Assembly: GCA_009760855.2 (NCBI GenBank)
Contig: WPIO01000035.1
Location: 1,520,501-1,584,500, forward strand
Source of the DNA: Cristatella mucedo
Taxonomy: Eukaryota; Bryozoa; Phylactolaemata; Cristatellidae
Direction of reading: 5' to 3'
DNA length: 64,000 nt
A program made the translations under genes and the position numbers. The notes under the pieces were generated by a model. That model made no database searches, had not been told where the DNA came from, and was given only the letters and a program-made list of their open reading frames with translations. Below, one piece after another: positions 2,211 to 50,999 of the stretch (position 1 is its first letter; each line of letters starts with the position of its first letter).

Positions 2211-2520
2211 TGACGTGTTCGAGTTTTTGCAACACAAATGCTGTAGCAAAAAACCCTAAAATTGGCAGCACCGTTTATATAGGATTGAAATTTGACCACG
2301 TTCCCATTGAAAATATTAGAGGCGTAATGCTATTTTCCGATAAACGTGACAAGCATCGTCCTGAACAGGATCGTTTAACCTCATCGCATACACATCTAGT
2401 TATTTTTGGTTAGCTCCTTAAATACTTTCTTTGAGGTGATACGATAGGCCAGTTCGCGTTATGCAACAATTGTGCTTTTTCCAGAAATCCCCAAGAGTAA
2501 TCAGATGACCAAGCACAGGA
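2211..2520 (+). pseudogene. Decayed B-type Ig-like exon (upstream)
   Basis: A possible acceptor (TTAAAG, AG at 2209-2210) leads in phase 1 into an open frame. By eye this aligns with exon B1: STVYIGLKFD against RTLYMACIIPD, then about 39 residues with a single one-residue offset ending in IFG against LFG. The frame stops at TAG right after FG (2411-2413), but past the stop the residues still track B1, including the region of the second Ig cysteine. The first Ig cysteine and the tryptophan are replaced. It lies 0.4 kb before exon A1, so the A/B array probably extended further left. This is a manual alignment of a diverged sequence; chance similarity is possible. Confidence 0.38.
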
Positions 2521-2542
2521 CACACTACCAATGTGCATGCTT

Positions 2543-2850
2543 GAAGCCACACACAAAAATCCAGACACACATGCATACACCCACACACAGACACACACAA
2601 ATATAGGCAAGCACACATGCACACACACACAGACACCCACTAATATAGGCACATGCACATGTGCACACACACACATACACACGCACACACGCACACACAC
2701 ACACACACACACACACTCATGCAGGCACACACACACATACACATGCACATATAAGAGTGTACACATGCAAACACATAGGCACACTCATGCACACAACTGC
2801 TAGTGCATGCAGGTGCAGACATACACAAGAGAATACACACATAAGCACAC
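2543..2850. repeat. (AC)n-rich microsatellite
   Basis: About 300 bp of interrupted CA dinucleotide repeats with ATGCAC and ACACGC variants; the purest run is near 2690-2715. It lies directly upstream of exon A1. Open frames on both strands here are repeat artefacts (Cys/Val or His/Thr repeats). Confidence 0.95.
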
Positions 2851-2949
2851 ACTCGGGCATTATATTTTCAAATTGATATATTACTAAGAAATGATTATGT
2901 TCAAACCGAATAGGCAAAAGTGACATAATTCAACACTGTATACTTTTAG

Positions 2950-3321
2950 TAATTCAATCCGTGACAACAACTAGATGGAGTGACACAACCAAGCATTATA
3001 CATGGTCATTAGGATTTCCTTACTTTGTTTGCTGCGACATAAGTCTTTTGAGTGAATACGATGTATCGAACATCACATGGACTATTGCTGAACTAAGTGA
3101 AAGAGACCCAAATGAAGCTGAACTTGTCAGCATAGGAAACACATACGGCAGAAAAATCCAAGGACAACGATGTGGACAAAGCTCATCAGTAGTTATAATT
3201 TCTCAACAGTACAGTAACAATGAAATCCAAATTAGTTGCTCTGCAAATGTGGTCCTCAAGTCCGGTGGACGTTTGCCTTACAAAGTCACATCACAGGAGC
3301 TTATTGCTGAAGTTAGTAAAG
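2950..3321 (+). CDS. Exon A1: type A Ig-like domain
   Basis: A 124-codon exon between TACTTTTAG and GTAAAT, phase 1 at both ends. Within the exon the residues that look structural are Cys28-Cys29, Trp44 (15 after Cys29), Cys75 and Cys97. The Cys29/Trp44/Cys97 spacing fits a V-type Ig fold, with Cys28 and Cys75 as a likely extra pair. Asn41 is in an N-glycosylation sequon (NIT). The motif NTYGRK at 64-69 is shared with exon A2. The two A exons align over all 124 positions without a gap at about 30% identity by my count, so their divergence is old. The domain resembles no family I can name from sequence alone. Confidence 0.8.
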
Positions 3322-3604
3322 GTAAATGCAATTCTAAATAACTTATTTTATCTTGTAGATCTAAAAAGCTTCAACTCTAAAAATAATAAGAGACTATTTG
3401 CAGAAATATTCGTACATTAATATTATAATATTGTGTACCTGTTTAGAAAGCCTCGATGTGATCGACTTGAATGAAACTTTAACAAAATAGGTAAACTAAC
3501 CACAATTAAAGATACTGGGCTCTCATTTTTTCACAATTCAAGCTTAATCAAAACTGTGGATTTAGTGCATTACTACACTATAGAATTATAACTTTCTGAA
3601 ACAT

Positions 3605-4980
3605 ATTAATAATGCACTTGATAAAGCACCGTCAGAGAACTCAATCTGTTTCTAGGCGATTTGCATTTGCTGCAAATGAAAATACGATTGAATGGTGTGT
3701 GATTTCGTGCTTGATAAGCAACATAAATAAATAACATGGTTAAGGGTGACATGCACAGGGTCAGCATGCAAATGTGGTTAGTCGCAGCTTGAACAGTATC
3801 AGCAGTAATAAAACCGGGACCCAGCAAATGCTGTCCTAAACAGGCGTGTTTTTAGGTTCTTTTTAAATGTGGTCAAGTCAGGTGATTTTGTGATCCAAGG
3901 CGGAAGTGAGTTCCAAGCTTTGGGAGCATACGAACTAACTGTACTATCTCCAAAGAATTTGAGGTTGTTAAGAGGTACTGGTAAACTGTCAGAATGCGAA
4001 AAGCAGGTCTCACGATGCTTGGCCTGGTGAGGGAGTAGATCTGAGAGATAGGCTGGAGCCAAAGAATGAAGCAACCTAGAAGTGAGTGACCAAGCCTTGA
4101 AGTCGATCACTTACTTGAATGATAGCCAGTACAGGTCGGAAAGTAGTGGAGGGATGAGGCAATTGCGATGCTGGCGACAGACAAGCCTAGTTGCAGAGTT
4201 TGGAACCTGCTGTTAGCCAAGTATTGAACATGCTGGTACGCCAGAAAGCAGTGAGTTACAGAAGTCAAGACGGAATGTCACAATCGTACCGACCAACTTA
4301 GACGTGCTATCCTTATCTAAACAAGCTCGAATTCTTTATTAATTTGGTGTATCTGGAAACTCGCAGACTTGATGGTGGTGCTGATGTGGTTTTCCGGCTT
4401 GTGGTAACTTTGGAACATGACATCTAGATTTCGTACTGATTCAACTGGATATCCGCTGGCAGAGCCGATTGAGCTTTTGATTTGCAACTTTCGAATCTCA
4501 CTGGGTTTGATCACAACTAATTGTTAGGTTTTATCATCGTTTAGTATAGGAAAACCTACTGCCATCCGTGTGTGGATGTCCTAAATATATTAAGTGAGAG
4601 AGCTGAGCGACTTTGAGGTGCTCGAAGGTTGATAGGGATTTAAGCAAAGACGCAACTGAGTGTCATCCCCATAGAAGTGAAAACTTCGATTTTTCTTGGC
4701 AATTACATCGGCCAGTGGGAGGGTGTAAACCATTAAAAGAACCGGACCCAGCACGGAGCCCTAAGTCACTCCATTTTGAAGAGGTACCTCGGATGATCTT
4801 TGTCGATTCATGTCAATACTCTGGAGTCTTCCACTGTGATATGACCCGAACCATTGCAGAGCCGTACCATTGACGCCCAGGAGTGATGAGAAGTGCTCCT
4901 AGAAGAACTTGGTGGTAGATAATATCAAAAGCTGCCGAAAGATTGAGCAAAACAAGCAGAGGTAATCTACCCATGATTTA
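3605..4980 (-). mobile_element. LINE family 1 copy, 5'-truncated
   Basis: Reads on the minus strand from a reverse-transcriptase fragment near 4980 to the 3' end near 3605. The complement shows the family hallmarks: a conserved C-terminal region with PAYLSDLLPHQAKH and KAWNSLP (open at 3799-4110), followed by the 3' UTR with GCATGC-rich repeats and the GGCGCTTTATCAAGTGCATTA tail. Stops and frameshifts disable it. It lies in the A1-B1 intron and faces another copy (5230-6345) head to head. Confidence 0.85.
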
Positions 4981-5229
4981 TTCCAATGTTTGTCATTGAA
5001 GCCTTTTACAAAAGTCTCAAAACACAATTTGTGAATTTACAGTTTTCTATTCGACAGAAAGCTATAACAATAATAATATTAGACTCGATTATACGACCTC
5101 TGACAGCTCTATCTTTTCTTAGGTGTTTTACAGACTGCGACGTTAGTTTGTTGCCGGCATGGTAACAAGTCTTAACGTATCTCAGATTCAATGACTTAAT
5201 TTCAAATATTGGTATCGATTCTTCCTCGT

Positions 5230-6345
5230 CGTGGGTGAGACTCTACCTGCTTTGATCCCTCCCAGCCTTCGAGCACCTCAAATACTCTCAAGTCACTTGT
5301 TGCATGTATTAATGACATCGCACATGGATGGCAGCAAATTTTTAAAAACTAAACAATGAGAAAACTAACTTACTAGTTATGGGTAAACCCAGTGTGATTC
5401 AGAAATTGAAAAGGCTGACGCTCAAAATTGTCTCATCCAGCATATCTCCTGATGAATTAGCTCACAATCTATGTGTCATGTTCCAAACTGACATCTAGTT
5501 AGACGACCACATCAGCTCCTCAGTCAAATTTGCCTACTTTCAGCTACACAACATCGCTACAATTCGGACTTGTTTAGACAAGGATACCACGTCTAAGTGT
5601 ACCCAAGCATTCGTAACATCCCGTCTTGACTTCGGCAACTCACTGCTTACTGGCCTACAGGCATGTGCAATGAAGCGATTGCAGGTGGTGCAAAACTCGG
5701 CAGCTAGGCATGTCTGTTGTGAAAGTCGCAGTTGCATAAACATCAAACCTCTTCTCGCCGACCCGCACTGGCTACCTATCAAGCGACGGATCAACTTCTA
5801 GGTTTTGCAGCTCACTTTTAGGTCATTTCATTCTTTGGCCCCAGCCAGTCTCTCAGATCTACTCCTCAACCAGGCCAAGCATCCTACCAACTGCATTTCG
5901 GAACCCAACAGTTTACTAATACCTCTTACAAACCCCAAATCCTTTGAAGATAGTGCATTTAGTTCGTAGGCTCCCAAAGCCTGGAACTCACGCCCGAATT
6001 TAGTCACAACATCCCCTGACTTGACCACAATTAAAAATAATTGTCAAACATACCTATTCAGGACAGCATTTAATAGGTCCCTGTGATTCGTCCTTCATGT
6101 GCTTATGCATGCTGACACTGTGCATGCTGTCACTAACCACATTAGTGCATTGCATTGCATTGCACATTGCATGCTGACCCTGTGAATGTCACTCTTAACC
6201 ATGTTGTTCATGTTGTTTATCAAGCATGATATTAGTCACCGTGCAATCGCTTTGGCCTTTACAGCAAATGTGAAGTGCCTAGAAAGAGATGGAGTTCTCT
6301 TAGGGCGCTTTATCAAGTGCATAATAATTATTACTGTCATTATTA
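5230..6345 (+). mobile_element. LINE family 1 copy, 5'-truncated
   Basis: Starts inside the RT domain (frame of CFDPSQPS), runs through the C-terminal region and 3' UTR, and ends in GGGCGCTTTATCAAGTGC plus (ATT)n. It has many stops. Its 5' end faces the minus-strand copy at 3605-4980. Confidence 0.85.
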
Positions 6346-6629
6346 TTATTTCACAAATGTGTTTGATTACTTAACCAATCTCCAGCACCACATTTCTTAC
6401 ACCGACTGACTAATTGGCTCTACTTCCTCAGGCACCTGGATCAACTCAGATCAAGAGTCGCACATTTGACCAAATGTTCGAGCACATTTGCTCTTCATTA
6501 CCAATTATCATTACCGCATTCTGCTTATCTAACCAAATATAAATCTCATTTAGTCAGAAAACTTTGGCCTCATATTCCTCCTCAACTGCTATTACATGCA
6601 AATCCCGAAATCCTTTAGACCCTTGCCAC

Positions 6630-6765
6630 CCCCGATTAGCCTTGCAGCTAACGTGCTTGCTCCGATCAAGGTCTGGCCGAGGTCGTGGACTTGAGCCCCA
6701 TGGCATATGTGAACTGCCTGAATAGATTTCAAGTTCTTTTAGGGTTCTATTCAAATTAATTGTGT
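6630..6765 (+). mobile_element. SINE family 1 (tRNA-derived), fragment
   Basis: Shares the block GAGGTCGTGG, then CTTGAGCCCC, ATGGCATATGTGAA and CCTGAATAGA with the copies near 40.3, 40.5 and 56.2 kb. The tRNA head is damaged. It is inserted in a LINE. Confidence 0.65.
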
Positions 6766-7398
6766 ACCCTCTTTTCGATGCTGTTTGTGAGAGAATATCT
6801 GTTTTGCCTCAGTTGCTCAATCCCATTTCTGATATGCCGTCATAGGCAGATGGCAACAGCAACACACTATCTAACATGCCCAGAGGCTTTGCAGCTTTGA
6901 CTAAGCTCACTGTGAGCCCTCGAACAGACTGCCAGTATTTTTTGCAAAAATTAAAGCAGCTAAGGGTGTTATGCACCAGCTTGAAAAAACAGTCAATCAT
7001 AAGGTCGAATGTCCATCGTCAGGCATATGAGGATTTCTGCAGATCCTATAAATCGATCCTAAGAAAGGTGATGTTTAGCTGATTTAAAAAAATTGTTGGA
7101 TCACATTTAAACAATCCGAATATTCTGATTTCGACGATCAGGCGTCTCCTAAACCACTTTAATGTGACATAAAAATGTAATTATCACAGAGATGATATAC
7201 TTTATTACTTCTCTAGCTTTTTTGTCAACCAATTTACAAGATTTTCTAAACGCCCTTATGATGCCAGCACCCTCCCTTGAATAAAGTCTCTCAATTGCAT
7301 GCAGCCCCTCAATGTCTACATTTAAGTAGGTCACTAGTGACCTCGTCCTAAAATTTAAATCTAGTTAAGATAATTAATTAAAACTATTTAAACACGGA

Positions 7399-7432
7399 TA
7401 ATAATAATAATAATGCACTTGATAAAGCGCCA
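7399..7432 (-). mobile_element. Very short LINE family 1 tail insertion
   Basis: (AAT)n followed by GCACTTGATAAAGCGCC, the reverse complement of the family 1 3' tail, lies inside a plus-strand LINE. It looks like a retrotransposition event truncated after about 30 bp. Confidence 0.55.
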
Positions 7433-9638
7433 AAATACTAATCACAGAAGACAATTAGTTCTTTGGACCCTATCTTGCCAGTACAATGCATTTATATGCT
7501 CATTTCTTGCATTATTAACCTTTAAAAAACCTTCATAGCTTCAAGTCATATCACAGCACCTTTCAAATGACTGTATTTGGACTATCACTCAAAAAAGTAA
7601 CTCCAGACCGGGTGACCTCGTGCAACGACCTCCCAGACCTGCTTCTACAATTTCTATCAAATACACTTTAAGAAGTCCTGCCAGATCAGATTAGTTCAAA
7701 TATTGAGACATCTAACCTACCAAGTAAGTTCCGCTCTGGTTTTGGATAAAATCACTACGGGAAGTCAGCATTCCATTGGGTTTACAATGACCTACTTATG
7801 AATGCACGTTTAGGGGAAGTCAGCATTCCATTGGGAGTACAACGACCTACTTATGAATGCTGGTTTAGGTAAATAATCTTATATTTTGTATCACATCCTG
7901 CATCAGCTTTCAATAGTATCGATCGTGAAATCCTACATGGGGGCCAATCATCTCTCCTGGTCATCATCTTCACTGCTCTGCAATGGTTCAGGTACTACCT
8001 TAGAGGAAGACTGCTGAGCGTTGATGTGGGAGGACGAGGATCGTTGGAGAAACGTCAGAAATAGGGAGTCTGGCAAGGATTGTACTTGATTCGGTTCGTT
8101 TATCATTATACTCTCCCCTTAGCTAATGTGGTTCTCAGGCTCATTATAGGCCTTTGTGTAGATGCAGTTGAAACTAATGTGTATAATTCCTTCGATCCTT
8201 CATGCCCCTGACCAATTCGAATTCTCCTAATTCCCGTGTAACATTTATATATGAAATATACATTTGGATGACAGCAAACGTTTTTCTTAAATTTAAACGC
8301 TATGAAACTAAATTACTAGTTATGGGCAAAGCAAGTGGGATTATAAAATTAAAAAAATGAAAGCTCAAAAAACGGGTTATGCCACTGTATCTTTTGTTGA
8401 ATGTGCTCGCAAACTGGGTATCATGTTCAAAAGCTACCCTTTTTTAGATAGCTGCATCAGCTCTACAGGTATTTCTGCCAACTTTCATTTATGTAATATT
8501 GCTATAATTAAATTGTCAAATTCATTTGTGTGTAGACAGGGATTACACGCTTAAATTGGATTTCACATGTTTGACATCATGCTTCGACTTCTTAACCTGA
8601 CTGCTTGCTGGCGGTCTAGCTAGTGCTATCACTTGCTTAAAGTTTGTGAAAACCTCTGCAGCTACACTCCGTGTGTACACTCCGTTTGAAGCAGCCACAT
8701 CACACCACTTCTAGCCGACCTGCGCTCACTCCCAGTCCAGCAATGCACCGAATCCACAGCTCTATGACTAATTGTTTAGTTAATATATAATTTTGCTACA
8801 AGTTATCTATCCGGTTGACTCCCTGTCAGGCTTAGCATCTTCTAACCATCATTTTGGAATGTAACTGCTTACCTCCACTTCATGCAAATCTAAAATTCGT
8901 TTAGAGACCGTGCCTTCAATTGGTATTCTCCAACAGCCTGGAAATCACTCCCGATTTGGATCACAATAACTCCTGAATTTTGGACAATTAAAATTAACAC
9001 TAAACACATTTTTATAATGCAAATAATGGGTCCCTTTGATTTGCCTTTTATGTGCAATGCTGTAACTGGCCATACTTGCAGGCTCACCCTGTGCATGCTA
9101 CCCCTGACCATGTTATTCTTTTCTTTCGTTGGGCTTGCTACCACAAGTTCGTTGATCGTGTTTCATTCCTTTGAGAGTTCTATATCAAATGTATCATCAT
9201 TGTCATGATGATAACGTTTCTCTTCAGTACCGATTAGACTAGATATGCTTCTATAAATTATATTAGGTTGGTTACTAATATTTTCACCTATCCGCATTCT
9301 TTCCTTAAGTACCTTTGATGGTTACTCTTCGGTCAAAAAAACTGCAACAATATTATCATGTAAACCGGAGGGCACAATATCCTGTCATTTCTTTTACCTC
9401 GGTAAAACTGCTCCTATTTTTGCAAGGCCTCAGGTATTCCTTCTGCAGTTTCAATTATTGCATAAGAAATACCTTTTCCTTATTTAATGACTCCAATTAT
9501 TTCAAGTTTATACAGGCGTTTAATGTTTACAAGTAGTTACCTTAATCATCTTGAACCTGCAAGGAAATTAGCAACATAAACTATTGACCCAGTGTTCTTT
9601 GATTGTGAAACTTTTAGAACGTTTGCTAAAGGAACAAG

Positions 9639-9779
9639 CACACACACACACACACACATACACAGACACACGCACACACTCACGAGCACACATACACACA
9701 CACACACACGCACAAGCACGTCCACACAAACTCATACACACACACACATACGCACACTCAGACACACACACACACACAG
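9639..9779. repeat. (AC)n microsatellite
   Basis: About 140 bp of interrupted CA repeats with ACGC and ACTC variants, in the A1-B1 intron. The overlapping His/Thr-rich and Cys/Val-rich frames are artefacts. Confidence 0.95.
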
Positions 9780-10259
9780 GTCCTTTGCATCAATGCTAAT
9801 TAATCCACAATTATCTTCAGGGATACTAACTTCCGCTAGCATATATTGAATAAAACTAATCTGGCTTGCAAGTAATTTAAGAAATCAAACCAAAATAATA
9901 AGTGCTATGAACTGTTTTACTCTTGATATAGGAATAAGGAGGAGAGTTACAAAAATATATATAGAGAGCTTGAGGATTACGAATGGCTTGTGTGATTTAT
10001 GGTGTGTGAATGGTGTGATGATTTAATGGTGTGTGATTTACGCATTTTTCCATGCTATAAATGAGTAACTAAATGAATGCAGCTACAGCTTCCCTATCTG
10101 TAGTTGAGGGCATTGCTGTTAAGTCGGAGTACTCATCTCCATACCTTACTATATCGAGATCTCGAGTAAAATTAAAATGAAGATTACGAGTAACTTAAGT
10201 TGCACCATCCACCCAAGCTAACGATCTTTACACTTCATGCTGTGTGCTCTTCTCACTGC

Positions 10260-10581: not shown

Positions 10582-10589
10582 ATTGTGCT

Positions 10590-12028
10590 TTCTTAGCCAC
10601 TTACAAAAATTAATCAAGCAAGAACATTCACACTTTGGATTAAATAGGTAGACCTTACAATACAAATACCTTTAACGATTAAAGTAATTTTTGTTTGGCT
10701 AGGATTAACTTAAACGAGTTCGACTAGTTACTCGGGCATAATTTCAAAGTTGGCTGTTTAGAAAATTCTCTCTGGTATTCACCATTTTTAGCATAAACAA
10801 AAGGGAGCATTATTACATATTTCCTTCGTGACTGTTGCAAAACCGACACCAAAATAGTAATTTTTTCCGGATCTTAGTCTTGCATTTTACTGATTCACTC
10901 ACTACGTAGCTAGAGTGCTTTATTTATTCGTTTTGAGCTAACATATGCAAAAGTTGTAGCCAAATTCTGTACACATATTAATTGCTGGAGTGTTTGAGGA
11001 ATATAGTACTAGGACTACTATACAATACACATCATTTTATCTGCATCAAATTAAAAATATTTTGCATTCGTGGGAAATATTGCTAACATTAAAGTCTATG
11101 CACTTACGATATTTAACACAGTAAAAAACAAAATTGAAGTGTAAGCTACACTAATGGCGATTGTTGGCTTGATTTTGACGGATTTAGCATAACAATTCTT
11201 TCACTCCTAATAGCCTTTATTCAGTATTATCATGATGCGCCTTATTCTAAAATTATATGTAATACTTTCAATTTGAACAGAAACTCTACCTAAGAATTTC
11301 TCGAAAATCTACTTGTTTATCTAAAACTAAATTGGTTTAGTGCTTATTTATGGAAAATCGATATTCCCATGTGCAAACTAAAATTAGGTTAAAAGTTAGC
11401 AGCTATCTGAAAGCGTTATGCATGTTCTTATAGATTTGAAAGCATTTTCAAAACTACCGCAAACTCCATTGCTGCTCAAGTAAAAACGGATACAGATAGG
11501 ATTATTTTTATGAAGCAGCTTTAAATAATAATGATAAGGATTATCAGGGTGGAGGTCAGAAACGGTTTTCACAGAATGGACTAACATTTTAACCTTGCCA
11601 GTGATTTTAGTTTTGAGTAATGTTGGTCAAGATGACAATTAATATTCTATGCAATTATATCACGGAGAACCCTGATGGGGCGCCTGTTTAGTTATTTTAA
11701 AATTTGAAAAGCTCATACAATTTCATGATCCATTAAATATCTTTGAATTTACTTTGCCTGTTGAAATAAAAAATGTGATTTTTGCTTTGGTTGAAATATG
11801 AAAAATTAAGATACTGTATAATGCACCACAATTATTATTTATCTGATATAACTATATACCTATGCAATAAATGAGGAAAAACGAAGTATTGCAACAGTAA
11901 TATGCCACTAATCAATCCGAAGTTTATTCCGGTCTTGCTTTAGGATCGCCTTCGGGTTTAAACGTAATTCCGCTTGCACCAGATGCAACGTTCGGTGAAT
12001 TTTTATTTATGCCTCAGAATCATTCTAG
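10590..12028. other. Intron, nothing recognised
   Basis: AT-rich end of the A1-B1 intron. I looked for an A-type exon here, as the alternating order would predict, and saw no convincing one. Confidence 0.5.
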
Positions 12029-12343
12029 ATCCTCAACTTGTACACCTTTTAAAAAATGGTGAGGTTTTGACGAATCGAACTCTCTACATGGCTTGCATCA
12101 TACCTGACCAATATTTCAAAGAATATATAACCATAAATTGGTACGTCAATGGAAAAGCTATATTTAAAACCAGTCCAGAAAACATAGGCACTGCAACAAT
12201 AGGCGATCAACTACTACTTTTTGGCAATTGGACCATTTCACTACCGCCTGGAAACTTTGAAATATACTGCGAGCGGAAAATAGGCATTCCCATGGTAAAA
12301 TCTATCGCATCAAATATCTTTGTAGTCAATTTTGATCCAGAAG
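12029..12343 (+). CDS. Exon B1: type B Ig-like domain
   Basis: 105 codons between CATTCTAG and GTAAGT, phase 1 at both ends. It shows the Ig signature Cys23, Trp38 (15 later) and Cys81 (58 after Cys23), with hydrophobic strands around them (LYMACII, ITINWYV, FEIYC). Sequons lie at Asn16 (NRT) and Asn67 (NWT). The upstream open frame extends to a TTG codon at 11974, but the acceptor at 12027-12028 gives exactly the length and phase of exon B2, so I start the exon there. It was duplicated with exon B2. Confidence 0.82.
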
Positions 12344-13079
12344 GTAAGTAACGAGTTTTATTTTTACTGATATAAGGAATAACTAAGCATACTCAATGTA
12401 TGTGTAGTAAAATAATGAATAGCTTACATATTTTAATGGGAGTAGTTTATGCATTGGATGCAATGGCTTGGTTCTTCGAGTGGTAACTACTTTAACTATC
12501 CATAAACTTGTATTAGGCAGTTAAAACCCCAGAGTGAATTACCATGTAGAAGCCTGTAATTTCACCATATTAAAATAAGGCACTTTGTATCACCTTAGGA
12601 GTAAACTAGATAAAACGGAATTTACATTGAACTAGTGCAGGAATTAAAAAACTGAGGTAAAGAGCTAACTTATATTATGACTTTACTTCGGTACATGCGA
12701 CTTCATTCGAATGTAACTTACAAGGATACTGACGAAGAGTAAATGGCTCTGTTTAAAGTCAAAAGCAAGTACCTTAACAAACTTTTAACTTATACCTCGA
12801 AGTACCAAGGTTTGAAATATTAAAGTAAAAACTAATTAAATATATAAAGATTATTTATACAGATCTTGTCTAGTGTTTAATTTACTGGTAAGTGTAGTTA
12901 GCATCTCTATTGTAAATTTGCTTAATTTTCTGCTGATTTCTTTAATGACTCAAATCCAGCGCACGCAGCTTTTCTTAAGAAACTCCACACAAGTATTGAC
13001 ATTCGGACTAATCTCTTACGAGTTGCTTCAGCACGATCCAGTAAAAAGCTATAGGTCAATAATACCCGGCTTGCCATTT

Positions 13080-14190
13080 TGTAATGTAATGCAATGTAAT
13101 GTATCTCCGTCCGTAACTCCACAAAGCCATACAGACTTTGTGGGTGTTATGCACGAGAGATTTGCATAGCCCACTCACAGCCTAAGCGGCTTTCCATACG
13201 CATTAGCCAAATGACTTCTTCTTACACAACAAAGAGAGACTGGGAAGCCTAGAACAGTCAGGAGAGCAACATAGGTAGTGGGTAGCATGGAAGTAGCAGG
13301 TCAGGAGAGCTGAAAAGAATGAGCCATAATCAGCCGCAGGAGAGTAGTTATCGTTGCATAAGAATTGTGGAAGCGAGTTCCACATTATAGGACGTGCAGA
13401 TCTAAAGCACCAGTCACCAACGGTCTTAAGCGGAGGAATAAAACGGCTAGTTTATTGTCAATACAGGACTTTAGGGTGCGAAGAGGCTGAAAATGGTGCA
13501 GCAATTTAGCTAAGCATGAAATTGCCAGGCGGTGGCCAGCCCTGTTGGTCAGCATAACTTCGCTTTGTATCCGTTGCTCAACCGGCATCTATTCTTGCTC
13601 TTTTAGCAAAACAGACATGTGCTGAAACCTCTGGGACTTGAAGCCTAGCCTTGAAGCCATATTCACAGTTAGCTGCAGTGGCATAGTTGCTTTGTTTGGT
13701 AGCCCAGCCAAACTGTAATTACAATAATCAAGCAGAGACAGAACTAAGGAGCTAGTTAAATTTTTGGCAAGCCACGGTGGAAGAAAGCTCCTAATCTTGG
13801 ATAGGGATCAGAAGCGATGGCTAAATGTAGAATCAGTCGTGTGAATGAAGCTTTTAAAATTTATACAGCTGCCGAAAACAACACCTAAAATTCGAGCACG
13901 TGGTAATGGTCTCCCAAAAGCATCACCTAATAGAAGAGCAAAGGCTTTCAATCCAGCCACCTCCTTGGAGTGTCTTATGAGCAGCATTTAGGTTTTATAG
14001 TGGTTTATCTTCAAGAAGTTTTCCGACATCAGGATCGAATATCGGGAAGGCAAGCATTCAGTTTCTCAGTGGCTGCATCAGATTCCGACGGTTTGAATGA
14101 CAAATACAGCAGAGTATCGTCAGCATAAAAGTGACATCTTATTCCGTGGGCCTTAATCACTTTTCCCAGAGTGCTGCCAAATACATTACT
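13080..14190 (-). mobile_element. LINE family 2 copy, 5'-truncated
   Basis: The complement carries a CR1/L2-type RT C-terminal region: PVEQRIQ near 13570 and MWNSLPQFL near 13380. The same order of blocks recurs on the minus strand at 34.6-35.5 and 36.9-38.0 kb. It differs in sequence and 3' end from family 1 and is disabled by stops. It lies in the B1-A2 intron. Confidence 0.75.
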
Positions 14191-15734: not shown

Positions 15735-16106
15735 GTAGACCCGTTGTGAGAGCCCAGATTGGACAGCAAGTGAATCTTCCTTCACCTTGGTATGGTGGAA
15801 TTCCTTACTTTTTGTGCTGCGATTGTAATTCTCTTCAGGACTATAAGCTGATTCACGTGAGATGGAATGCCACTGGAGCAGTAGCTAATGACCTAAATGA
15901 TGACGAATATATCACCATAGCAAACACATATGGGCGAAAAACAAAACCTGGCACTTGCAGCTTCAGCTCTACAATTATCATAACTACCCAGCAAAATAGC
16001 ACACTAGATTTGAATATCCTTTGTACAGCCACGCTTGTCGATAAATCTTCAAACAATTCATCCTTTGAGGCAATTTCTTCAAATTTCTACAGCAGTGTCC
16101 GTGAAG
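15735..16106 (+). CDS. Exon A2: type A Ig-like domain
   Basis: 124 codons between GCATTTAG and GTATTT, phase 1 at both ends and exactly as long as A1. It keeps Cys28, Cys29, Trp44, Cys75, Cys97 and NTYGRK in register with A1 and adds Cys31. Sequons include Asn45 (NAT), Asn88 (NST) and Asn108 (NSS). An earlier AG (near 15688) would give a longer exon starting near an ATG at 15698. I prefer 15733-15734 because length, phase and alignment to A1 all agree. Confidence 0.82.
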
Positions 16107-19118: not shown

Positions 19119-19433
19119 GTCCTCCGATGATAACAATAAAAAAAAATTTCCACGTCGAGAACAAGTTGCAGCTGTTATGCATCTTACCAGATTCATCCTT
19201 TCAAGATGCAATCACGATTACTTGGTATTTGAATAACCAACTAAACCACTTTGGAAAGCCAAGTGTTGTGGAAATCTCAGACCTAACAAACCGAACGGTA
19301 CTTGCTGGAGAATTCAAGTTCAGCATTCCTAAGGGTAATCACAAATTATATTGCAAGCGAAATATCGATGTGAAGTCTTCTACACCTATTACATCTAATA
19401 CCATAAGCGTCTATGGAAGGAGCATTAAGGATG
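19119..19433 (+). CDS. Exon B2: type B Ig-like domain
   Basis: 105 codons between GGTTTTTAG and GTGAGT, phase 1 at both ends and the same length as B1. Cys21, Trp36 and Cys79 repeat the 15 and 58 residue spacings of B1. ITITWYLNN and FSIPKGNHKLYCKR match ITINWYVNG and ISLPPGNFEIYCER. One sequon lies at Asn58 (NRT). It is the membrane-proximal Ig domain, because the next exon holds the membrane helix. Confidence 0.83.
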
Positions 19434-20197: not shown

Positions 20198-20223
20198 TCG
20201 CTCTCTCTCTCTCTACACACACA

Positions 20224-20273
<50 letters not shown>

Positions 20274-20514
20274 CACACATACACACACACATACACACAT
20301 AGATGTGTGTGTGTGTGTGTGCGTGTGTGTGTTCATGAGCTTGCGTCTCTTGCTATCGGTCTCTGCCTCTGTCTCTCTGTGTCTCGGTATCTCAGTCTGT
20401 CTGTCGGTCAGTATGTCTGTCTGTTTTTCTGCTTATCTGTCTGCCTGCCTGTCTTTTGTCTGTCTGTATGTCCGTCTGTTTGTCTGTCTCTGTCAGTCTC
20501 ACTTTCTTTCTGCG
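20198..20514. repeat. Compound (CT)n(AC)n(GT)n(CTGT)n microsatellite
   Basis: A CT tract, then about 85 bp of near-pure AC, then directly GT, then degenerate CTGT/CTGC repeats. The AC and GT arms are complementary and meet near 20302, so they can fold back. Three translated frames through it are artefacts. Confidence 0.95.
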
Positions 20515-21940: not shown

Positions 21941-22374
21941 ATGTTACATATGCCGGGGTGTATTATGGTGTGCCTGCAGCCTGTGTGGCTATTTTGATTG
22001 GTTACGTTGCAATCTACATCTATTACATAAATTCAAAGAAAGCCGCTGAAGCTTTGCAATATCAAGGTTTGCAGAAACAGCAGAATCACGTTGCTTCTTT
22101 TCCAGACGAAAACACTTTCTTTGGGAGTCAACAACTTGAATTCATAGTTCCTAGCCGGAGCTCAGGTCTTCATTTACTGAACTCAAGTTTACCCACTTCC
22201 AGTTACGACAGTAGTTCTGTTCCTAATTTATCTAGCAGTTATAGCCAGTCACATCAGCCATCCAAACTGTCTATCAACCACTCAGGAAGTATCAAATCTA
22301 ATGGAAAATTAATCGATAAAAGCCGAAGAGCATCCAGCGTTTCTTTCTCAAAGCATGTACAGTATAGCAGCTAG
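21941..22374 (+). CDS. Last exon: transmembrane helix and cytoplasmic tail
   Basis: Starts after GTCGTTGTAG in phase 1, codes for 144 residues and stops at TAG (22372-22374). Residues 11-30 (VPAACVAILIGY and on) form one hydrophobic helix, followed by SKK as stop-transfer. The tail is about 114 residues, rich in Ser. It has LQYQGL at 39-44, which fits the ITIM consensus (V/I/L/S-x-Y-x-x-L/V/I) ten residues inside the membrane. Further tyrosines (SYDSSS and VQYSS at the C-terminus) do not fit ITIM or paired ITAM spacing. An RRAS motif near the end is a possible basophilic kinase site. The tail resembles no family I can name. Confidence 0.85.
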
Positions 22375-30851: not shown

Positions 30852-33800
30852 TAATTCTCGCCTCCTGACATAGAGCGCTCTAACGTGTGTTCTTGTTCGT
30901 TGCAGAATTCTTCCGAAAACCGAAGTTCTTGCGAACATCGTATACGGAAACGATACAGCTAAGACCTGTTTAAAGTTATTCTGATTGTTTTTTGACCGTA
31001 GCGCGTAAGAAATTACGTGCCTATGGACATCTAAACGCTTTTCGCTTCGGGCTGCTGGGTCTCCCACGCCGGCGGCTGCATTAGCTACGCCGGCGGCTAG
31101 TAACCAATTTGTTAGTTATGGTCGTCAGCAGCTGCTATCGCTTCGTCATCGTATATCAAATGCATTCCTAGATATTAATGTTGTTGCTAAGATTCATGAA
31201 CTATGCATTAACAAAAGGAAAGCACCCCGTAGCCGCCGCGGTGGCCAGAACCGCCAGCTTAGATGCTGCTCGTTTGGTATTCCTAGCATTGTCTCGAACC
31301 ACTTAGCACGCTCCCCGCATGCGTCACTGTAAATCTCTCAAACTTAGTGGTCATCAGGCCTATTGTAACCCAATCGGCCAGACTTAACGCTTGCCTTTGG
31401 AATCCTCGCTCAATGTGCAATAAACCTCTAGTAATAAACGACCTTATTTCTGAAAATGGTATCGACCTGCTCGCCCTAACTGAAACTTGGCTGAAATCGA
31501 TAAACTGCCCGACAATTAAAGACGCTACTCCATCTGGTTTCACGTTCTTTCACACCCCTAGATCAATCAAAACTGGAGGTGCAGTTGCTATGATCGTGCT
31601 CTCGAAATTCAACTTCAAGCCATTTGCAGTACCCTCGAAGCAGTCTTTTAAATCAATTGTCCTGGTCTCACCCGAAAACAAGCTACCGATAGTGGCAGTA
31701 GTCTATCGCCCACCAGGTACCAAATCCTACTTTATCTCAGATTTCTCCGATCTCATTTCGATTCTGTGTTCAAGAAATCGATCCTTCCTCGTTATGGGTG
31801 ATTTCAACGTCCACTTTGATAACTTATCTGACGCTTTCAGCACCGAATTTCGTACATTGACAGACTCATTATCTCTAGTGACTCATGTGCATGGCCCTAC
31901 CCACATCAAGGGTCACACACTCGACCAAATTTTCTCATATAACTGCACTTTGTCATCAGCAGTTAACACCAAATCCTGCTTATCTGACCACATGCAGATC
32001 TCATTCAATCTACAGTGTGTGCCCACATTCTCCTCTAAAATAACCTGTGAATAGCGAAACCTCAAGACCCTTGACATCGATGCTGACCGTGCGAGCATAT
32101 CTGCTTCACCTTTGCTGCTCAGTCCTCCCTCCGATCTGTCATCACTGGTAGATTGCTACAACACGACACTAGCTGACACGCTCGACGAGTGTGCACCTTT
32201 GACAAAGCGCACTGTGGGCCCCCGCCCAGACGGCCTATGGTTTACCACAGACAATAAACTAGCCAAGTCTACTAAACGAAAGCTTGAAAAGGCATACAAA
32301 AGATCCGGACTAACTGTCCATCGACAGACATATGAAGACTACTGTAGGTCGTACCAATCGATCCTAGCAAAGGCTAAGCCTAGCTTCTATAGAAACATTG
32401 TTGAATCACAGATGCACAATCCAAAAATGCTGATGTCGACAATAAACCATCTCCTCAACCGTTCCCAGGTTAGCTCCTTACCTGATGATCCTTGTGATGA
32501 TCTAGCCGATCGCTTCTCTCGATTCTTTGTGCAGAAGATAGACAAAATCAGGGAATCCATCCCTGCGATGACAACCTTCCCACTAGAATGCTGTTCCTCG
32601 GTTCCTGGCTGCGCCTCAATGTCTGCATTTAAACAGGTCACTAGTGATGTAGTCCTAAAGCTCGTATCTCAATCAAAGAAGACAACAAGTCCACTGGACC
32701 CTATTCTCACTGTCCTGCTCCTACGTTGCATTGATCTGCTGCTGCCATGCATAACCAACATCATTAATATGTCATTAGCCTCAGGTCAGGTCCCAGCACC
32801 TTTCAAAAAAGCTGTAGACAGGCCACTTCTCAAGAAAGCTACACTAGACCAAGAGAACTTAAGCAACTACCGCCCACTCTCCCTTCTACCATTCCTATCA
32901 AAGACACTGGAACGGGTCGTGGCAGACCAGCTGAACTCGTATATCGTAACCTCACACCTTGCTAGTAAGTTCCAGTCTGGCTTTAGAGCTAATCACTCCA
33001 CAGAGTCAGCATTGCTTCGGGTATACACGACCTACTTAGGAATGCAGACATGGGTAGAGTGTCTCTTCTTGTTTTGCTCGATCATTCGGCGGCTTTTGAT
33101 ACCATCGATCGCAAAGTACTTCTAGAGCGCCTCTCATCTCGCCTGGGCATCACTGGCACTGCTCTGCAGTGGTTCAGGTCCTATCTCAGTGAGAGACTCC
33201 AGAGTGTTGACGTGAATGGACAAAGATCATCTGAAGTACCTCTAAAATATGGAGTACCTCAGGGCTCTGTGCTAGGTCCTGTCCTTTTCACCGTTTATAC
33301 TCTCCATCTCGCTGATGTGATTGCCAAGCACAATCTAGGCTTTCACTTCTATGCAGATGACACTCAGTTGTATCTTTGCTTTGATCCCTCCCAGCCTTCA
33401 AGCACCTCAAATTCTCTCAACTCACTTGCTGCATGCATTGATGACATCCGCACATGGATGACAGCTAATTTTCGAAAACTAAACGATGATTAAAGTAACT
33501 TACTAGTTATGGGCAAACCCAGTGTGATTCAGAGATTGGAAAGGCTGACTCTCAAAATTGGCTCTGACAGCATATCTCCTGTTGCAGCTGCTCAAAACCT
33601 TGGCATCATATTCCATAGCGACCTCACGTTAGACGACGTTATCAGCTGCACAGTTAAAGCTGCCTATTTTCAGCTGCATAACATTGCTAAAATTCGGGCT
33701 TGTTTAGATAATGATACCACATCCAAGTTGGTTCATGCATTCGTGACATCCCTTCTCGACATCTGCAACTCATTGCTTACTGGCCTACCAGCATGTGCGA

Positions 33801-34330
33801 TCAGGCGATTGCAGCTGGTGCAAAACTCTGCAGCTAGGCTTGTTGTCGTGAGTGCCTCAGTTGCCACATTACTCCACTTCTCGCCGACCTGCACTGGCTA
33901 CCAGTCAAGCAGCGGATTGACTTCAAGGTTTTGTCGCTCACTTTTAGGTCTCTTCATTCTATGGCTCCAGCCTATCTTTCAGATATACTACCCCATCAGG
34001 CAAAGCATCGTACCACTCGCTTTTCGGAATCCAACAGTCTAGAAATACCTCGTACAAACCTTAAATCCTTTGGAGACCGTGCATTTAGCTCGTATGCTCC
34101 CACAGCCTGGAACTCCCTCCTGACCTGCGTCAGAACATCCCCTGACCTGACCAAATTTGAATGTTCTTAAAAACACGCCTATTTAGGAAAGCATATAGTG
34201 GGTCCCTGTGATTCTTCCTTCATGTGCTTATGCCTGCTGACACTGTGCATGCTGCCACTTACCACATTTGCATGCTGACCCTGTGCATGTCACCCCTAAC
34301 CATGTTGTTCTTTTTGTGGTTTTTCAAGCA
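30852..34330 (+). mobile_element. LINE family 1, longest copy (EN + RT), disabled
   Basis: A CR1/L2-type non-LTR element. The 5' region (30852-31100) is GC-richer, with two CGCCGGCGGCT motifs, and may hold the internal promoter. ORF2 follows. The endonuclease (31347-32054) has the family motifs TETWL, YRPPG, MGDFNV and SDH. The RT has NYRPLSLLP, AFDTID (motif A), [13 protein letters not shown] (motif B) and FYADD (motif C). Four lesions can be seen: an in-frame TAG at 32052-32054, a one-base loss near 33027, a GAA to TAA change at 33491-33493, and a one-base loss near 33843. The copy lacks the usual 3' tail: similarity ends near 34330, before the GGCGCTTTATCAAGTGC block, which is unusual because these elements normally lose the 5' end. 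Confidence 0.92.
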
Positions 34331-41515: not shown

Positions 41516-41928
41516 GGAACGGTTTTGGTCGACATATTTCGTATCTAAAATTCAGCTATTATTATTAGGAAACCTGCAAATGAACTAGTCAAAATAGTTA
41601 AAAGATTGTGGATGAATAATGCTCATTAAAGTTTGTGCAGGCTGCAGTTTCGTGATAATGACCATTTTTATCGGAGCAAATAATTGTGGGCACAAATAAT
41701 TTTTGTTAAGTAAATATGAAGAATCTTACTTTTGCACATTGTAGTTTTACCTGCTCTAGATCACGTTAGATATTAACGGAAAAGACCCTTGTTGTCGGTT
41801 CAAGTCAACCCTACTATAAAAGATCAATCTCAGGCAGCAGGTTTACTGAAGTAAACCATAATTTAAACTTCACGTGCCATGGTTATTTCGCGATGACTAA
41901 ATTTTGATTTGTCGAATTTGAATACAAG

Positions 41929-42230
41929 TCACTGACTATATATGGCACCACTGATTCAACTCCACCGGTGTATCTAATGACTTACCTTGTCTCTTCGAAC
42001 GCATTTATGGGATCGTCGGGAGTCAATTTCTATTTTAAGAGTGGAATAGTAAGCTGTCAACCAAGCCGCATTGGAGGCGGATCGTTCACCTGCCCCCTAA
42101 GCCTTTCCTTGGTCACGAAAAAATATACCGGTATTTATGGATGCTTCTGCCATTCCCTTGTGTCGCTTTATGATATTCCAGTCGGAGACCCACGTGCAGT
42201 TTTACTTGTTTGCAGTTTTACTTGTTGGAG
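41929..42230 (+). pseudogene. Diverged Ig-like exon with a 16-bp duplication
   Basis: The open frame aligns with exon B2 without gaps over 25 residues: SSNAFMGSSGVNFYFKSG against PDSSFQDAITITWYLNNQ, with Trp replaced by Phe. A YTGIYGCFCHS block at the F strand looks like a classic Ig end. The donor GGAG|GTAAAA is intact. Just before it a 16-bp unit is repeated exactly (42195-42210 and 42211-42226). With one unit the donor falls in phase 1, as in all other exons; with two it falls in phase 2. No phase-1 acceptor was found. Closest to type B, but an A-type assignment is not excluded. Confidence 0.45.
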
Positions 42231-42239
42231 GTAAAAATC

Positions 42240-44275: not shown

Positions 44276-44329
44276 ATTTTAAAGTATTATTATAATTAAT
44301 CAAATTGTGAATTTTAATATTTTAAATTT

Positions 44330-45590: not shown

Positions 45591-45819
45591 TAAAGGACTT
45601 ATCTATTCTAATGGGGCTGAAACGGTACCCTAATTTCTTTTAGCGAATAAGCTGGGTATAGCCGTAATATTAAAGATGTCTTGAACTTTTGTGGTTTACC
45701 TACGAGCTCAAAAGTCTTTATCCTTCACATGCTCGAAATCACCTCATGCCTGATATCGGAAGGGATAGGCTTGTAAAAATGTACAAATATTTCGACAAAT
45801 GTGTAGTGGTTGAACAATC

Positions 45820-46310
45820 TCGATAGTGTTCTCAGATCTAGTCCCCCACCAGGCCGAAATCGTACCAGCCGCTTTTTGGAATCCAACAGACTACAAATGC
45901 ATCGTGCAAACCTCAAATCCTTTGGGGACCGTGCGTTTAGTTCGTATGCTTCCTAAGCCTGGAGCTCCCTCCCGACTTGAGTCAGAAAATGCCCTGCCTT
46001 GATGGCTTTAAAAAGAACATAAAAACACAACCATTTCGGGAAAGTATCGATTGGTTATCTGTGATTCGTCTTTCATGTGCTTATGTGTGCTGACACTGTG
46101 CATGCTGCAATTAACCACATGTGCATGCTGACCCTGTGCATGTCACTCTTAACCATGTTATATATTTTGTTTGTTTATACAGCACGATATTACTCACCAT
46201 TTAATTGCATTTCCCTTTGCAGCAAATGTAAAGTGCCCAGAGAGAGAGATTGAGTTCTCTGAGGGCGCTTTATTAAGTGCATTATTATTATTATTATTAT
46301 TATAGTTATC
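45820..46310 (+). mobile_element. LINE family 1 copy, 3' end
   Basis: C-terminal ORF2 remnants (CACCAGGCC and GACCGTGCGTTTAG blocks), 3' UTR and a long (ATT)n tail at 46283-46302. Confidence 0.85.
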
Positions 46311-46682
46311 ATTACCAGGTTTCTTAGATGTATTTCTTGTTGCTAGAAATGAGTTAGTTGGTTACAAAATTGAATAAGCTCCTTTGATTTATCTGTTTTC
46401 CTAGCATGGCAGCTTGAACAGAAGTTGACTCAATCGCCATGGCTTAATATAGACTGCACTATATGAGAATTGGAGTGGTTAAGTAACTGGTGCACGGTTA
46501 TCAGCACCAGTTTTAGATCGAATAAAGTCAATAAGAAAAGCGTCGCAAGAGTTAAAATACTGAGAAGAAACGTATACTGTAATTAAAATGCTACTATAAT
46601 TGTTATTAATTAGCCTGATTCCAACCAAAGTCACCGGATATGTACACCCCTTAAATTTATAAATTATTGTTCTATTTTAAAG

Positions 46683-47050
46683 GAATCTTCCAGACAGTAG
46701 CAGCAACAGTTCCCAGTTACGCAGCAGCACCAACCTTTCCATCATATTGGGTGTGTCTTTGTAGTCAATTCCTCCAGTTGTCTAGCTAACCGCACCATGA
46801 AATTAGTAGCAACATAAACTGGCTCTTCGTCTTGACACACGATTGCTGACTTAAATCTGAAAATATTTGTAAAACCTATGGCCAACTGACATTGTATCCA
46901 CTGGGAAGAGACCAGATTTGAACAACAGATCGGTCTATTACCAAAATATTACATGGAAACAGTTTCCAGCTGAATGATCGTACAAGCGGATTAGCATAAA
47001 ACAGATTTAGAAAACATTTACAATTTATGTAGAACGCAATAGTTTAAAGA
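46683..47050 (+). pseudogene. Decayed A-type Ig-like exon
   Basis: The acceptor TCTATTTTAAAG gives phase 1. The residues then follow A1: IFQTVAATVPSYAAAPTFP against IQSVTTTRWSDTTKHYTWS, YWVCLC against YFVCCD, ISSNINW against VSNITW, and ENICKTYGQ against SIGNTYGRK. Three in-frame stops (the first after LQLSS) show it is dead. This is one of the clearer fossil A exons; the match runs through the first cysteine region, the tryptophan and the NTYGRK motif in the right order and nearly the right spacing. Confidence 0.55.
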
Positions 47051-47734
47051 TGTGTTTGACCGAACAATAAAAGCTAAAAACCTACTAGCAGGAAAATACA
47101 AATCAATACTAGTGGTCACACAATTTGCGCCATTTTTTAATCATGTTAGAAAGAGCTAAACTGCAATAACAATCTGTTCTCGCGAATCGCAATAGGAAAA
47201 TAAACTTGCTGGACTTTTATTAATGTGAGCGACTCCGTTCAGTCTTTACCTGTGGAAACTCTAATGGTCTCGGTCGAGAGGGTAAACACAAACAGCAAGT
47301 ATCCTCTAAATTAAAGAATGGCGCCTTATCAATTTGTCTACAGAAAGCTTACTTTATAACAAGTGAAGCCAATACCAGTGGGTGTCAATTTTCTTGTAAA
47401 AATCATTAGCAGAATTACACCATAGTGATGCACTTACAGTTAATTATTGCCTACTATCTGGCTTTTAAAACTGCTAAATTTCAATATAATCAAAGTAATA
47501 ATTATTGGATGCTCGTTTGGTTAACCAAAGTGATATAATTCCTGGGAAACCAATCAATATTACGTCAGCAACATTAAAATGACTGGTCAGAGACATCTAT
47601 GTGGCCGTACTAAAATAAACTCGGTTACATATAATATTTAGATAATTTTGTCAGTAAATCTGATTTAATTTAAATCATTACCAGCTTCATTACATAAATT
47701 ATTTCATATTTTAAGTGCCTAGACAGAAACTACT

Positions 47735-47795
47735 ATAATAAAATTAATAATACACTTGATAAAGTGCTCTCAGGGAACTCAATTTCTTTCCATGT
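47735..47795 (-). mobile_element. LINE family 1 tail fragment
   Basis: AATAATACACTTGATAAAGT, then GCTCTCAGGGAACTCAATTT: the minus-strand 3' tail only. Confidence 0.6.
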
Positions 47796-47882
47796 GTTTG
47801 CCTATCTGAGTACTCTGTAAAAGGATTTTCATTATTAAAACTGTGTTTATAAAAAAAACTTACGAAGTTTTATTTTTCGTAA

Positions 47883-48137
47883 TTATGCTGCAAAAAAGAG
47901 GTTGAAACCTTTGGAAACACGCTGTAAAATTCCGTTGAATTCAAGCTTTTCTTTCGTTTCGAAATCGCGAAGTTCCAATCTTGCACCGGATTCAAGCAAA
48001 TTTATTTTGGTGATTTTTGTAAGAGACACCCTGCGTTTGGGCCAGTCACCGAGAAAAACTGGAGCGATGGTTTTTAGGCCTTGCTTACTTTGTCTGCTGC
48101 CAGTGCTTGGATTGGTTAAGCTGTTACAACTACACAT
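47883..48137 (-). other. Unassigned 84-codon open frame
   Basis: A charged frame (SGARLELRDFETKEKLEFNG) on the minus strand; the plus strand is also open here (47902-48168). It looks more protein-like than most short ORFs in the window but matches no family I recognise. It could be a fragment of an unrecognised mobile element. Confidence 0.25.
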
Positions 48138-48194
48138 TTACAGCTCAATGACACTCCAATGCTTTTAAACCGATGAGTCCTGATGAAAGAAAGG

Positions 48195-48400
48195 AGTTAA
48201 TTCAATATGGAAGAATGCATCGCAGCCACATCGGAAAATCGGAGGGTCACTCCAGATCCACTTTTATCGTTCCAACATATGCCAATGCAGAGGGTGCAAT
48301 TTGGATAGCTTGTATATTGACTTTTCATTACCAATTGGAAATTAGATACGTTGAAATCGACTCAGATGAATTAATAAAATAAACTCAGCAAGGTACATTA
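48195..48400 (+). pseudogene. Possible decayed B-type Ig-like exon
   Basis: AIWIACILTFHYQLE aligns with TLYMACIIPDQYFKE of B1 without gaps. The underlying bases also agree around the cysteine codon. A possible acceptor (CACTCCAG) is one base out of phase, and the frame stops at TAA (48380-48382) before the second cysteine. Only about 35 residues support it. Confidence 0.28.
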
Positions 48401-50094
48401 AATATGTCTGCGGTTTGCAGCTCAATAATATTACTAAGCTCAATATAATTTAAAATGGATTATATTGGTGCTCTGTTGATTGCTATCTAGGTAATTGGGA
48501 TTCGTAAAAGCACTGAGGCCATGAGTGAGTAAGCATAGGTAATATAGAATAAATTTATATTACCATGCTATGAATATGTGATTTTGTGCTGAAAATCAAC
48601 TACTGTTAACTAGCTTATAGGTCTATTACCCTTATGATTGGGTAATAAAAAAGAAACTCATAGGAATACAGCGAAAATTAAATTTAAGGACTTTTCTCTA
48701 AAGATACTACACAATTAGAAACTTTTTAAGCTTGGAATTGTGGCACTTTGTAAATTTATAACAAAAATTAATTATTCTTTGCAGCCTGCTAAATTTATTT
48801 ACAGTTTAGAAAAGTTATTTTTTCACAAACATTTTTTTCATGATCCCCATAGCCCAAGTATTCAAGCAGATATACAAAGTTCCTTTTCTGCTTTAAAGAG
48901 AACAGTGTCACATAGTGAATAGACCTTTCATAGTTATCATTATGAAGCAACGTAGTCGTAACAGTCTGCACCGACTGGTAAGTAAAAATGGATCAGCTTT
49001 TCTAGTAAATAGTTACTCCTGCTTCCTTAAAAGTGCTGGAAACACTATGGTAGAATCATAGTTTCTACTGGTAAAGGATGAAGCTTGTATAAAAACATTA
49101 CACTTGCTTCCTTTGACTCACTTGCTGGGGTATAAAAAGTCCCGAGCTTCAGAATGAATTGATTTTCTTGCTCTTTCAATCTTCCAAATTAGTTCCGGAC
49201 GTATTATTTGTAAGTGCATCCTAAATTCATTCCAACATCGAATATTCAGTTTCCATTTTAAACCTTCATATTTATGAAGCTCTAAGTACTACTTATAATT
49301 TCATCGTTGTCAAATCCAGATCTTACAGAGGCTAATGCTGTGACCTTAACACTGGTCAACTGTGACCATGCTTCCGTTTGGAGCACATTATTGAGAGCAG
49401 CAGTTCATTAGTGAAAACTAGCTTATTGTCTACACAGCCTTATGAGTGCAGTAGTTAGCATACTTGCAAATTAGTCTTTATATTATGCATTTGTTTGTAA
49501 AGCTTTCTCCGGAAACATTTTAAAACCGCAGTTACATGTCAATTAGAAATAGCTACCAAAGAAATAGCCCTCACAAGCTCATTCCCAATATAAAAAATAG
49601 AGAAAATAACTTTAAAAATAAATTTAAAAATTAAAAAGCCTCAAACATTTAATTGTCTGGTCATTTTTACATTATAGCTAGGCAATAAAAGAGAAGGAGT
49701 TTATTAAAAATTTCTGTAGCCTTGAAATGTGATAGCATTTGGTCAGCTTCATCTGAGCTCAACTGAAATGTTATTACAGCTCCTAAGATTCTGTAACATT
49801 TTAGAAGCAGCAGTTTTTACTCAGTCGTTTCAAAATATATTTTAACAAGTAAACCATGGTATTTACATTATTAATAATTAAAGTGAGACCCTTTCGAAAC
49901 TTAGAAGAAAGGCTAACGCTTTTTAGTGTGCAAATTCATATAGTAAGTTGTTAATTACATGGTGGTAACCAATTAAAAAAAGATGGGATACTTTATAAAG
50001 CCTACAAATCTTACTACCCAACTTCAATCCCAACTAATTTGGCTACAGTCAGCAACTGCTGAGCGTGAATAATAACTACGTAAACATACAAATA

Positions 50095-50097
<3 letters not shown>

Positions 50098-50178
<81 letters not shown>

Positions 50179-50275
50179 GTGTATGTGTGTGTGTATGTGT
50201 GTGTGTGTGTGTGTGTGTGTTTATGTATGCGTGTGTTTATGTATGCGTGTGTTTATGTATGCGTGTGTTTGTGAG
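50098..50275. repeat. (AT)n(GT)n microsatellite
   Basis: About 75 bp of pure AT, then GT repeats and a short TTTATGTATGCGTGTG motif in tandem (50220-50270). The overlapping open frame is an artefact. Confidence 0.95.
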
Positions 50276-50436
50276 CGAGTGTCTATGTATGTACGCACGA
50301 GAGCACGTGTATGTACATGTACGTTTTTTTAATTAAAAACGTTCATCACAGTTTTGAGAAATAGCTCGAATACATCGGAAATGTAAGGGCTCCTTCAATA
50401 TTCACATCTATCAAGGAATAATCTCGCAATTTGTAG

Positions 50437-50742
50437 AAGTCCCTAAGGTGAACGCTAGACTTGTTTCCGAATCTATACCTCTTTGGATAGCTCGAGTCAG
50501 CTGCGTGCTGCCCGATATTGATCAAATGGAGTTAATTAAAGTAACCTGGCTACTAAACGGGAGCCACTTTCACGAAATGGTACCGCATTAATCTACTTTT
50601 GATGCTAAAGTTGTTCTGATGAGCACTATAGAACTAAGATTGGTACCGGTGAATCACTCCATTCTATCTTAAAGAGATGTGAATATGAAAGGTGTGGCTC
50701 AACAGAGATCGGACGTACTATGAGTATTCTTCCCACACCCAG
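50437..50742 (+). pseudogene. B-type Ig-like exon with three stops, splice sites intact
   Basis: 102 codons between GCAATTTGTAG and GTAAGA, both in phase 1 like the live exons. VSCVLPD and VTWLLNGS match LLCILPD and ITWYLNNQ of B2, with the first cysteine and tryptophan kept. NHSILS, a stop and RDVN track NHKLYCKRN. Stops lie at 50589-50591, 50670-50672 and 50721-50723. The second cysteine position is lost. This is the best-preserved dead exon and shows that the family once extended beyond the live gene. Confidence 0.72.
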
Positions 50743-50869
50743 GTAAGAGCAAAAGAAGTGGAGCTTTCCAGCAGCAAAAGGGCTCATCCACAAGCACGGC
50801 ATTGCTAGACATGACTCTGTCAGACATAGATAGATCTATTGAATGTTATAGCTACCTAAAAGCGGTTAG

Positions 50870-50999
50870 ACATATAATGCTCGTCAAATTTCCCGTTCTG
50901 TTACTAGGAGTGATCTTTTGTGCAGAAATAAAACTTTGCGTTGCAGCTGATGCTATGCAATTAGGAAATTTTCTGAGAAGAAAGACGATTAAAACATGA
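50870..50999 (+). pseudogene. Possible decayed membrane exon
   Basis: Shortly after the dead B exon, a frame codes for a hydrophobic segment (MLVKFPVLLLGVIFCAEIKL), then AADAMQLGN and a basic end (FLRRKTIKT) before TGA. AADAMQ resembles AAEALQ just inside the membrane in the live last exon. No phase-1 acceptor was seen. Alternatively it is an independent signal peptide starting at the ATG near 50878. Confidence 0.28.

Follow-up and report, generated by a model that had tools for sequence, protein, structure and literature searches.

The window, i.e. the whole 64-kb stretch of DNA analyzed here, harbors five open exons on the plus strand, designated A1, B1, A2, B2 and T, followed by the relics of two further exons, A3 and B3 (Table 1). 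Exon borders were placed at splice sites fitting all five open exons, with every junction in phase 1. The A exons are clearly related to each other, as are the B exons: A1 matches A2 at E 1.7e-21 in tblastn, with 35% identity over 107 residues and 30% over the entire exon, and B1 matches B2 at E 9e-16, with 32% identity over 104 residues and again 30% over the entire exon. The encoded domains are 124 (A) and 105 (B) codons long. A1 and A2 share the positions of four cysteines (27, 28, 74 and 96) and two tryptophans (18 and 43), a C-W-C pattern is present in both B1 and B2, and N-glycosylation sequons occur in all four of these outer exons. Since exon lengths are equal within each pair at 30-35% identity, and the A cysteines are in register, we regard these as real exons, which probably stayed open through most of their divergence. 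The original prediction of four live exons was thus borne out, at E values of about 2e-21 for A1 and A2 and about 1e-15 for B1 and B2.

Table 1. Receptor exons, relic exons and the longest LINE copy in the window.
Feature	Position	Strand	Properties	Basis
Exon A1	2950..3321	+	open, 372 nt, phase 1 at both ends	tblastn vs A2, splice sites
Exon B1	12029..12343	+	open, 315 nt, phase 1 at both ends, Ig-like	tblastn vs B2, splice sites
Exon A2	15735..16106	+	open, 372 nt, phase 1 at both ends	tblastn vs A1, splice sites
Exon B2	19119..19433	+	open, 315 nt, phase 1 at both ends, Ig-like	tblastn vs B1, splice sites
Exon T	21941..22374	+	predicted membrane helix ~21970-22029 and predicted cytoplasmic tail, stop at end	open frame, phase 1 acceptor, hydrophobic stretch
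Longest LINE copy	31287-34170		endonuclease and reverse-transcriptase domains, frames broken	Pfam
Relic A3 (A-type exon)	48024..48392	+	stops at 48149 (TGA) and 48380 (TAA)	borders by eye
Relic B3 (B-type exon)	50437..50742	+	stops at 50589 (TAA), 50670 (TAA) and 50721 (TGA)	borders by eye

The B domain is probably immunoglobulin-like, a reading that sequence comparison allows us to hold with fair confidence. In Pfam, B1 matched the C1-set at E 0.023 and B2 matched Ig_3 at E 0.031, both below the curated cut-off, and B3 had no match. When searched against PDB, a profile of B1 and B2 retrieved Ig chains, the best at E 0.0019, and all of the best 60 out of 81 sequences found up to E 10 carry an Ig or antibody name; the same profile reversed gave one non-Ig match (E 0.55) up to E 1. 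With B3 added, the profile retrieved 383 sequences up to E 1, and among the best 60 of these all but 4qgt_A and 8q5u_A have Ig, Fc, Fab or antibody names. The two highest-ranked sequences, at E 6e-9 and 2e-5, lack any single passing stretch, and the best match having one was found at E 1.1e-4. The PDB match spans just the front ~35-50 residues of B. Both B1 (C22, W37 and C80) and B2 (C20, W35 and C78) have the cysteine pair and the core tryptophan. B resembles the C1-set (PF07654) in its conserved C and W-Y-x-N-G and in its match to Ig constant domains over their front half, but differs from it in scoring under the Pfam cut-off and in having an unmatched back half. An AlphaFold model of B from a two-sequence alignment was mostly-beta and poor, with a mean pLDDT of 60.4 and a pTM of 0.52.

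The A domain, as judged from its sequence, appears to belong to no recognized family. Pfam assigned no Ig family to it, with no match at all for A1 and only DUF4940 (E 0.14) for the A2 frame, and a PDB search with A returned no sequence up to E 10. Profile-profile comparison of A and B gave no similarity. The cysteine and tryptophan spacing of A (C27-W43-C96) is V-like, which is a mere resemblance, and its AlphaFold model, likewise from a two-sequence alignment, was poor (mean pLDDT 53.9). For neither the A model nor the B model did Foldseek return anything at E <=0.001 or any immunoglobulin chain by title among the best 50 rows listed; the 50 rows for A include two for IL-12 subunits, at a probability of <=0.05. 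A literature search for the peptide NTYGRK gave no hit, a result that does not show the family to be undescribed. It is a rather improbable conjecture that A represents an undescribed cysteine-rich beta domain, paired with an Ig-like domain in a fast-evolving family of recognition receptors of this animal, and that the window would lie at the margin of a larger cluster where A-B modules arise and die.

Relic exons were sought with profiles of A1 plus A2 and of B1 plus B2 in a six-frame scan of the entire window, with stops read as X. A3 scored 19.8 bits (48023-48397) and B3 27.8 bits (50430-50747), and the next independent hits outside the live exons reached 2.5 bits for A and 4.1 bits for B. 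The best scores among 400 shuffles were 10.6 (A) and 12.0 bits (B), those among 40 dinucleotide shuffles 7.6 and 9.4 bits, respectively, and with reversed profiles the real window yielded nothing over 3.2 bits. By tblastn, A3 matched A1 at E 3e-4 and A2 at E 0.013, and B3 matched B2 at E 2e-6 and B1 at E 9e-5, as compared to a best E of 0.096 when the five exons were run against the reversed window. A frameshift-tolerant scan gave 60.0 for A3 and 62.0 for B3, with shuffle maxima (14 shuffles each) of 32.5-44.5 for A and 31.0-44.5 for B. A3 precedes B3 by 2.0 kb, 26 kb downstream of T, and the borders of both are phase 1 splice-like. The lack of frameshift in A3 and B3 was not counted as evidence, as the borders had been picked for phase. 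No relic of the T exon exceeded the shuffle range anywhere in the window in the frameshift-tolerant scan. The window accordingly contains three A-B modules in one orientation within 48 kb, two of them open and one dead, with five in-frame stops. This supports an old duplication of the A-B module, with one copy since pseudogenised.

The original prediction had counted up to eight decayed copies in this region, all on the plus strand. Two of these, the A-type copy at 48.2 kb and the B-type copy at 50.4 kb, are the relics A3 and B3, and both do lie on that strand; in the profile scan that had been proposed as a check, run here on the window, only these two places rose above the shuffled null. The other six, at 2.2, 10.4, 24.6, 28.05, 41.9 and 46.7 kb, score like background and are thereby refuted as copies of A or B by the standard that the original prediction had itself set. 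In frameshift-tolerant alignments of 1200-base segments around them, the six gave 23.0-28.0 with A and 23.0-27.0 with B. Control segments (60 drawn, of which 13 near listed places were skipped and 47 scored) had a median of 26.5 and a maximum of 34.0 for A, and a median of 24.5 and a maximum of 36.5 for B. Profiles rebuilt with A3 and B3 revealed no new copy in the whole window over the best of 40 shuffles, the best new matches being 3.1 bits vs 8.6 for A and 5.5 vs 7.9 for B. Copies too decayed to be recognized may still exist.

Some weaker matches were also recorded. The 5.5-bit B match, at 1771-2070, lies near the listed 2.2-kb place and is inside the null. Another weak match to the B profile is found at 52257-52385, 1.5 kb downstream of B3; at 4.1 bits, and 40.5 in the frameshift-tolerant scan, it is inside the shuffle range. 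An open frame at 41908-42234 (108 codons), faintly Ig-like by eye, was discarded, having no Pfam or PDB match and no A or B score. A tblastn match of T on the minus strand (4523-4365, E 0.017) was likewise set aside, as it falls within a LINE fragment.

Broken LINE copies are in fact abundant throughout the window, and are presumably L2. Such LINEs, along with the long introns and the phase 1 exons, suggest that the window is animal DNA. The Pfam endonuclease and reverse-transcriptase domains of the longest copy are found in open frames at 31.3-33.1 kb, fragments of this copy are numerous on both strands across the window, and translated matches to it cover ~17 kb. Self-similar DNA amounts to ~25 kb of the window, and G+C content, in 4-kb steps across the 64 kb, ranges between 34 and 42%. 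Microsatellites of CA/TG type are found at 2547-2802, 9626-9797, 20199-20320 and 50180-50320, three of the four at most 0.8 kb from a receptor exon or relic. ARAGORN predicts no tRNA in the window, and an Rfam scan likewise gave no match at gathering score. No relative of A, of B or of the LINE could be confirmed in collections of viral and prokaryote contigs, as would be expected of an animal gene.

Taken as one plus-strand gene, A1, B1, A2, B2 and T would encode a type I transmembrane receptor whose outer part is composed of two-exon A-B modules. Joined in phase 1, the five exons would specify four domains outside the cell, a single membrane helix and a short tail, with T presumably spliced to B2. 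The tail of T comprises ~110 residues and has a single ITIM-like motif, LQYQGL, which is so short that it can have arisen by chance. Judging from this architecture, the receptor would most likely bind a ligand or a neighboring cell via its A-B domains, and the T tail would pass on the signal. Such a four-domain receptor is suggested by the equal-length exon pairs, the phase 1 junctions, the common cysteines, the sequons, the Ig matches of the B profiles, the T helix and the relics with their stops. Counted against it are the lack of a convincing signal-peptide exon, the Pfam scores below cut-off, the restriction of the PDB match to part of B, the poor models with no significant Foldseek match, the long gap between A1 and B1, and a codon-position bias in the live pairs that is not above the alignment control. 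On balance we favor, with moderate confidence, a type I receptor gene A1-B1-A2-B2-T with one pseudogenised paralogous A-B module downstream.

With regard to the signal peptide, no exon resembling one was found within 2.9 kb upstream of A1, and the interval between B1 and A2 held a single weak candidate (12945-13095, donor 6 of 9). Three candidates came out of a stricter scan across the entire window, of which one overlaps B1 and two lie in a microsatellite. Just upstream of the B1 acceptor, at 11983-12058, there is an ATG in frame with B1 and accompanied by a short hydrophobic stretch, which may be due to chance.

The one-gene model has its most serious competitor in a division of the locus, with A1-B1 as a separate gene, or an orphaned front, and A2-B2-T as the sole live receptor, with two outer domains. 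The A-B-T module is indeed complete without A1-B1, and the spacing would agree with such a break, the distance from A1 to B1 being 8.7 kb and that from B1 to A2 3.4 kb. In addition, an open frame with a hydrophobic stretch (12840-13169), 500 bases 3' of B1, might serve an A1-B1 gene as a membrane exon dissimilar to T. What speaks for a single gene instead is that no T-like exon above the shuffle range lies between B1 and A2, that the weak signal-peptide candidate is the only one ahead of A2, and that all phases are compatible with one transcript. We consider a separate A1-B1 possible, if somewhat doubtful.

A wider interpretation, in line with the original prediction, would place the window within a large allorecognition or immune-receptor complex evolving by birth and death. 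Three tandem modules of which one is dead, fast divergence, and an Ig-like B domain together with an ITIM-like motif are features that would fit such a complex, and there is a broad likeness to the Alr clusters of Hydractinia. Alr proteins cross the membrane once, belong to the immunoglobulin superfamily and have low mutual identity, and their genes are clustered with many pseudogene-like models (PMC11067881). A complex similar to that of Hydractinia is described for Podocoryna (PMC13119343). The present locus differs in that only a single open gene and a single dead module are seen in the window, and in an A domain without a recognized Ig match. The NITRs of teleosts are clustered membrane proteins of type I topology that have either one or two Ig domains and, in many cases, ITIMs (PMC2442602); the locus differs from these in that no V domain can be recognized in A. 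By analogy, the locus may work similarly to the Alr and NITR receptors.

With six out of eight alleged relics at background, membership in a large complex of this kind is nonetheless unlikely. Adhesion receptors and further receptor families would be equally compatible with duplicated Ig-like exons next to a pseudogene. Nothing tested points specifically to an allorecognition or immune complex, and that part of the original prediction is not supported. Its claim of repeated duplication and loss holds for tandem duplication and the death of one module, and fails for the 'graveyard', the 'many dead relatives' and the repeated loss: duplication and loss are seen at a modest scale, i.e. three modules of which one, with two exons, is dead.

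Codon-position bias bears on whether the locus is alive at all. In the control, 60 random pieces of the window were aligned to B1/B2 (120 comparisons), giving a mean difference of 0.11, a 95% point of 0.22 and a maximum of 0.29. The live pairs, at 0.17 and 0.20, did not exceed the 95% point, and B1-B3, at 0.29, was the sole one of four relic-live pairs to do so. Dating the death of A3 and B3 by codon position was abandoned, as random pieces show a similar bias against B1/B2. The values for the live pairs, like the failure to find a signal-peptide exon, would agree with a locus that is dead as a whole, its open exons being young pseudogene pieces without stops so far. Such a recent death is very unlikely given five open exons with intact splice sites, and pairs that kept their length and gained no stop while their identity fell to 30-35%. 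Chance matches, lastly, are hardly credible as the origin of A3 and B3, despite the weakness of A3 against A2 alone, with scores well over those of 400 shuffles and of reversed profiles, in the expected order and strand, and with the spacing and splice-like borders described above.

Relics spotted by eye in AT-rich, LINE-filled DNA thus require a null model, one which six of the eight proposed here failed. As it currently stands, the locus represents one plausible Ig-like receptor gene, accompanied by a single pseudogenised module. Should the A-B family turn out to be both large and polymorphic, invertebrates, from which few recognition systems are known, would gain another.
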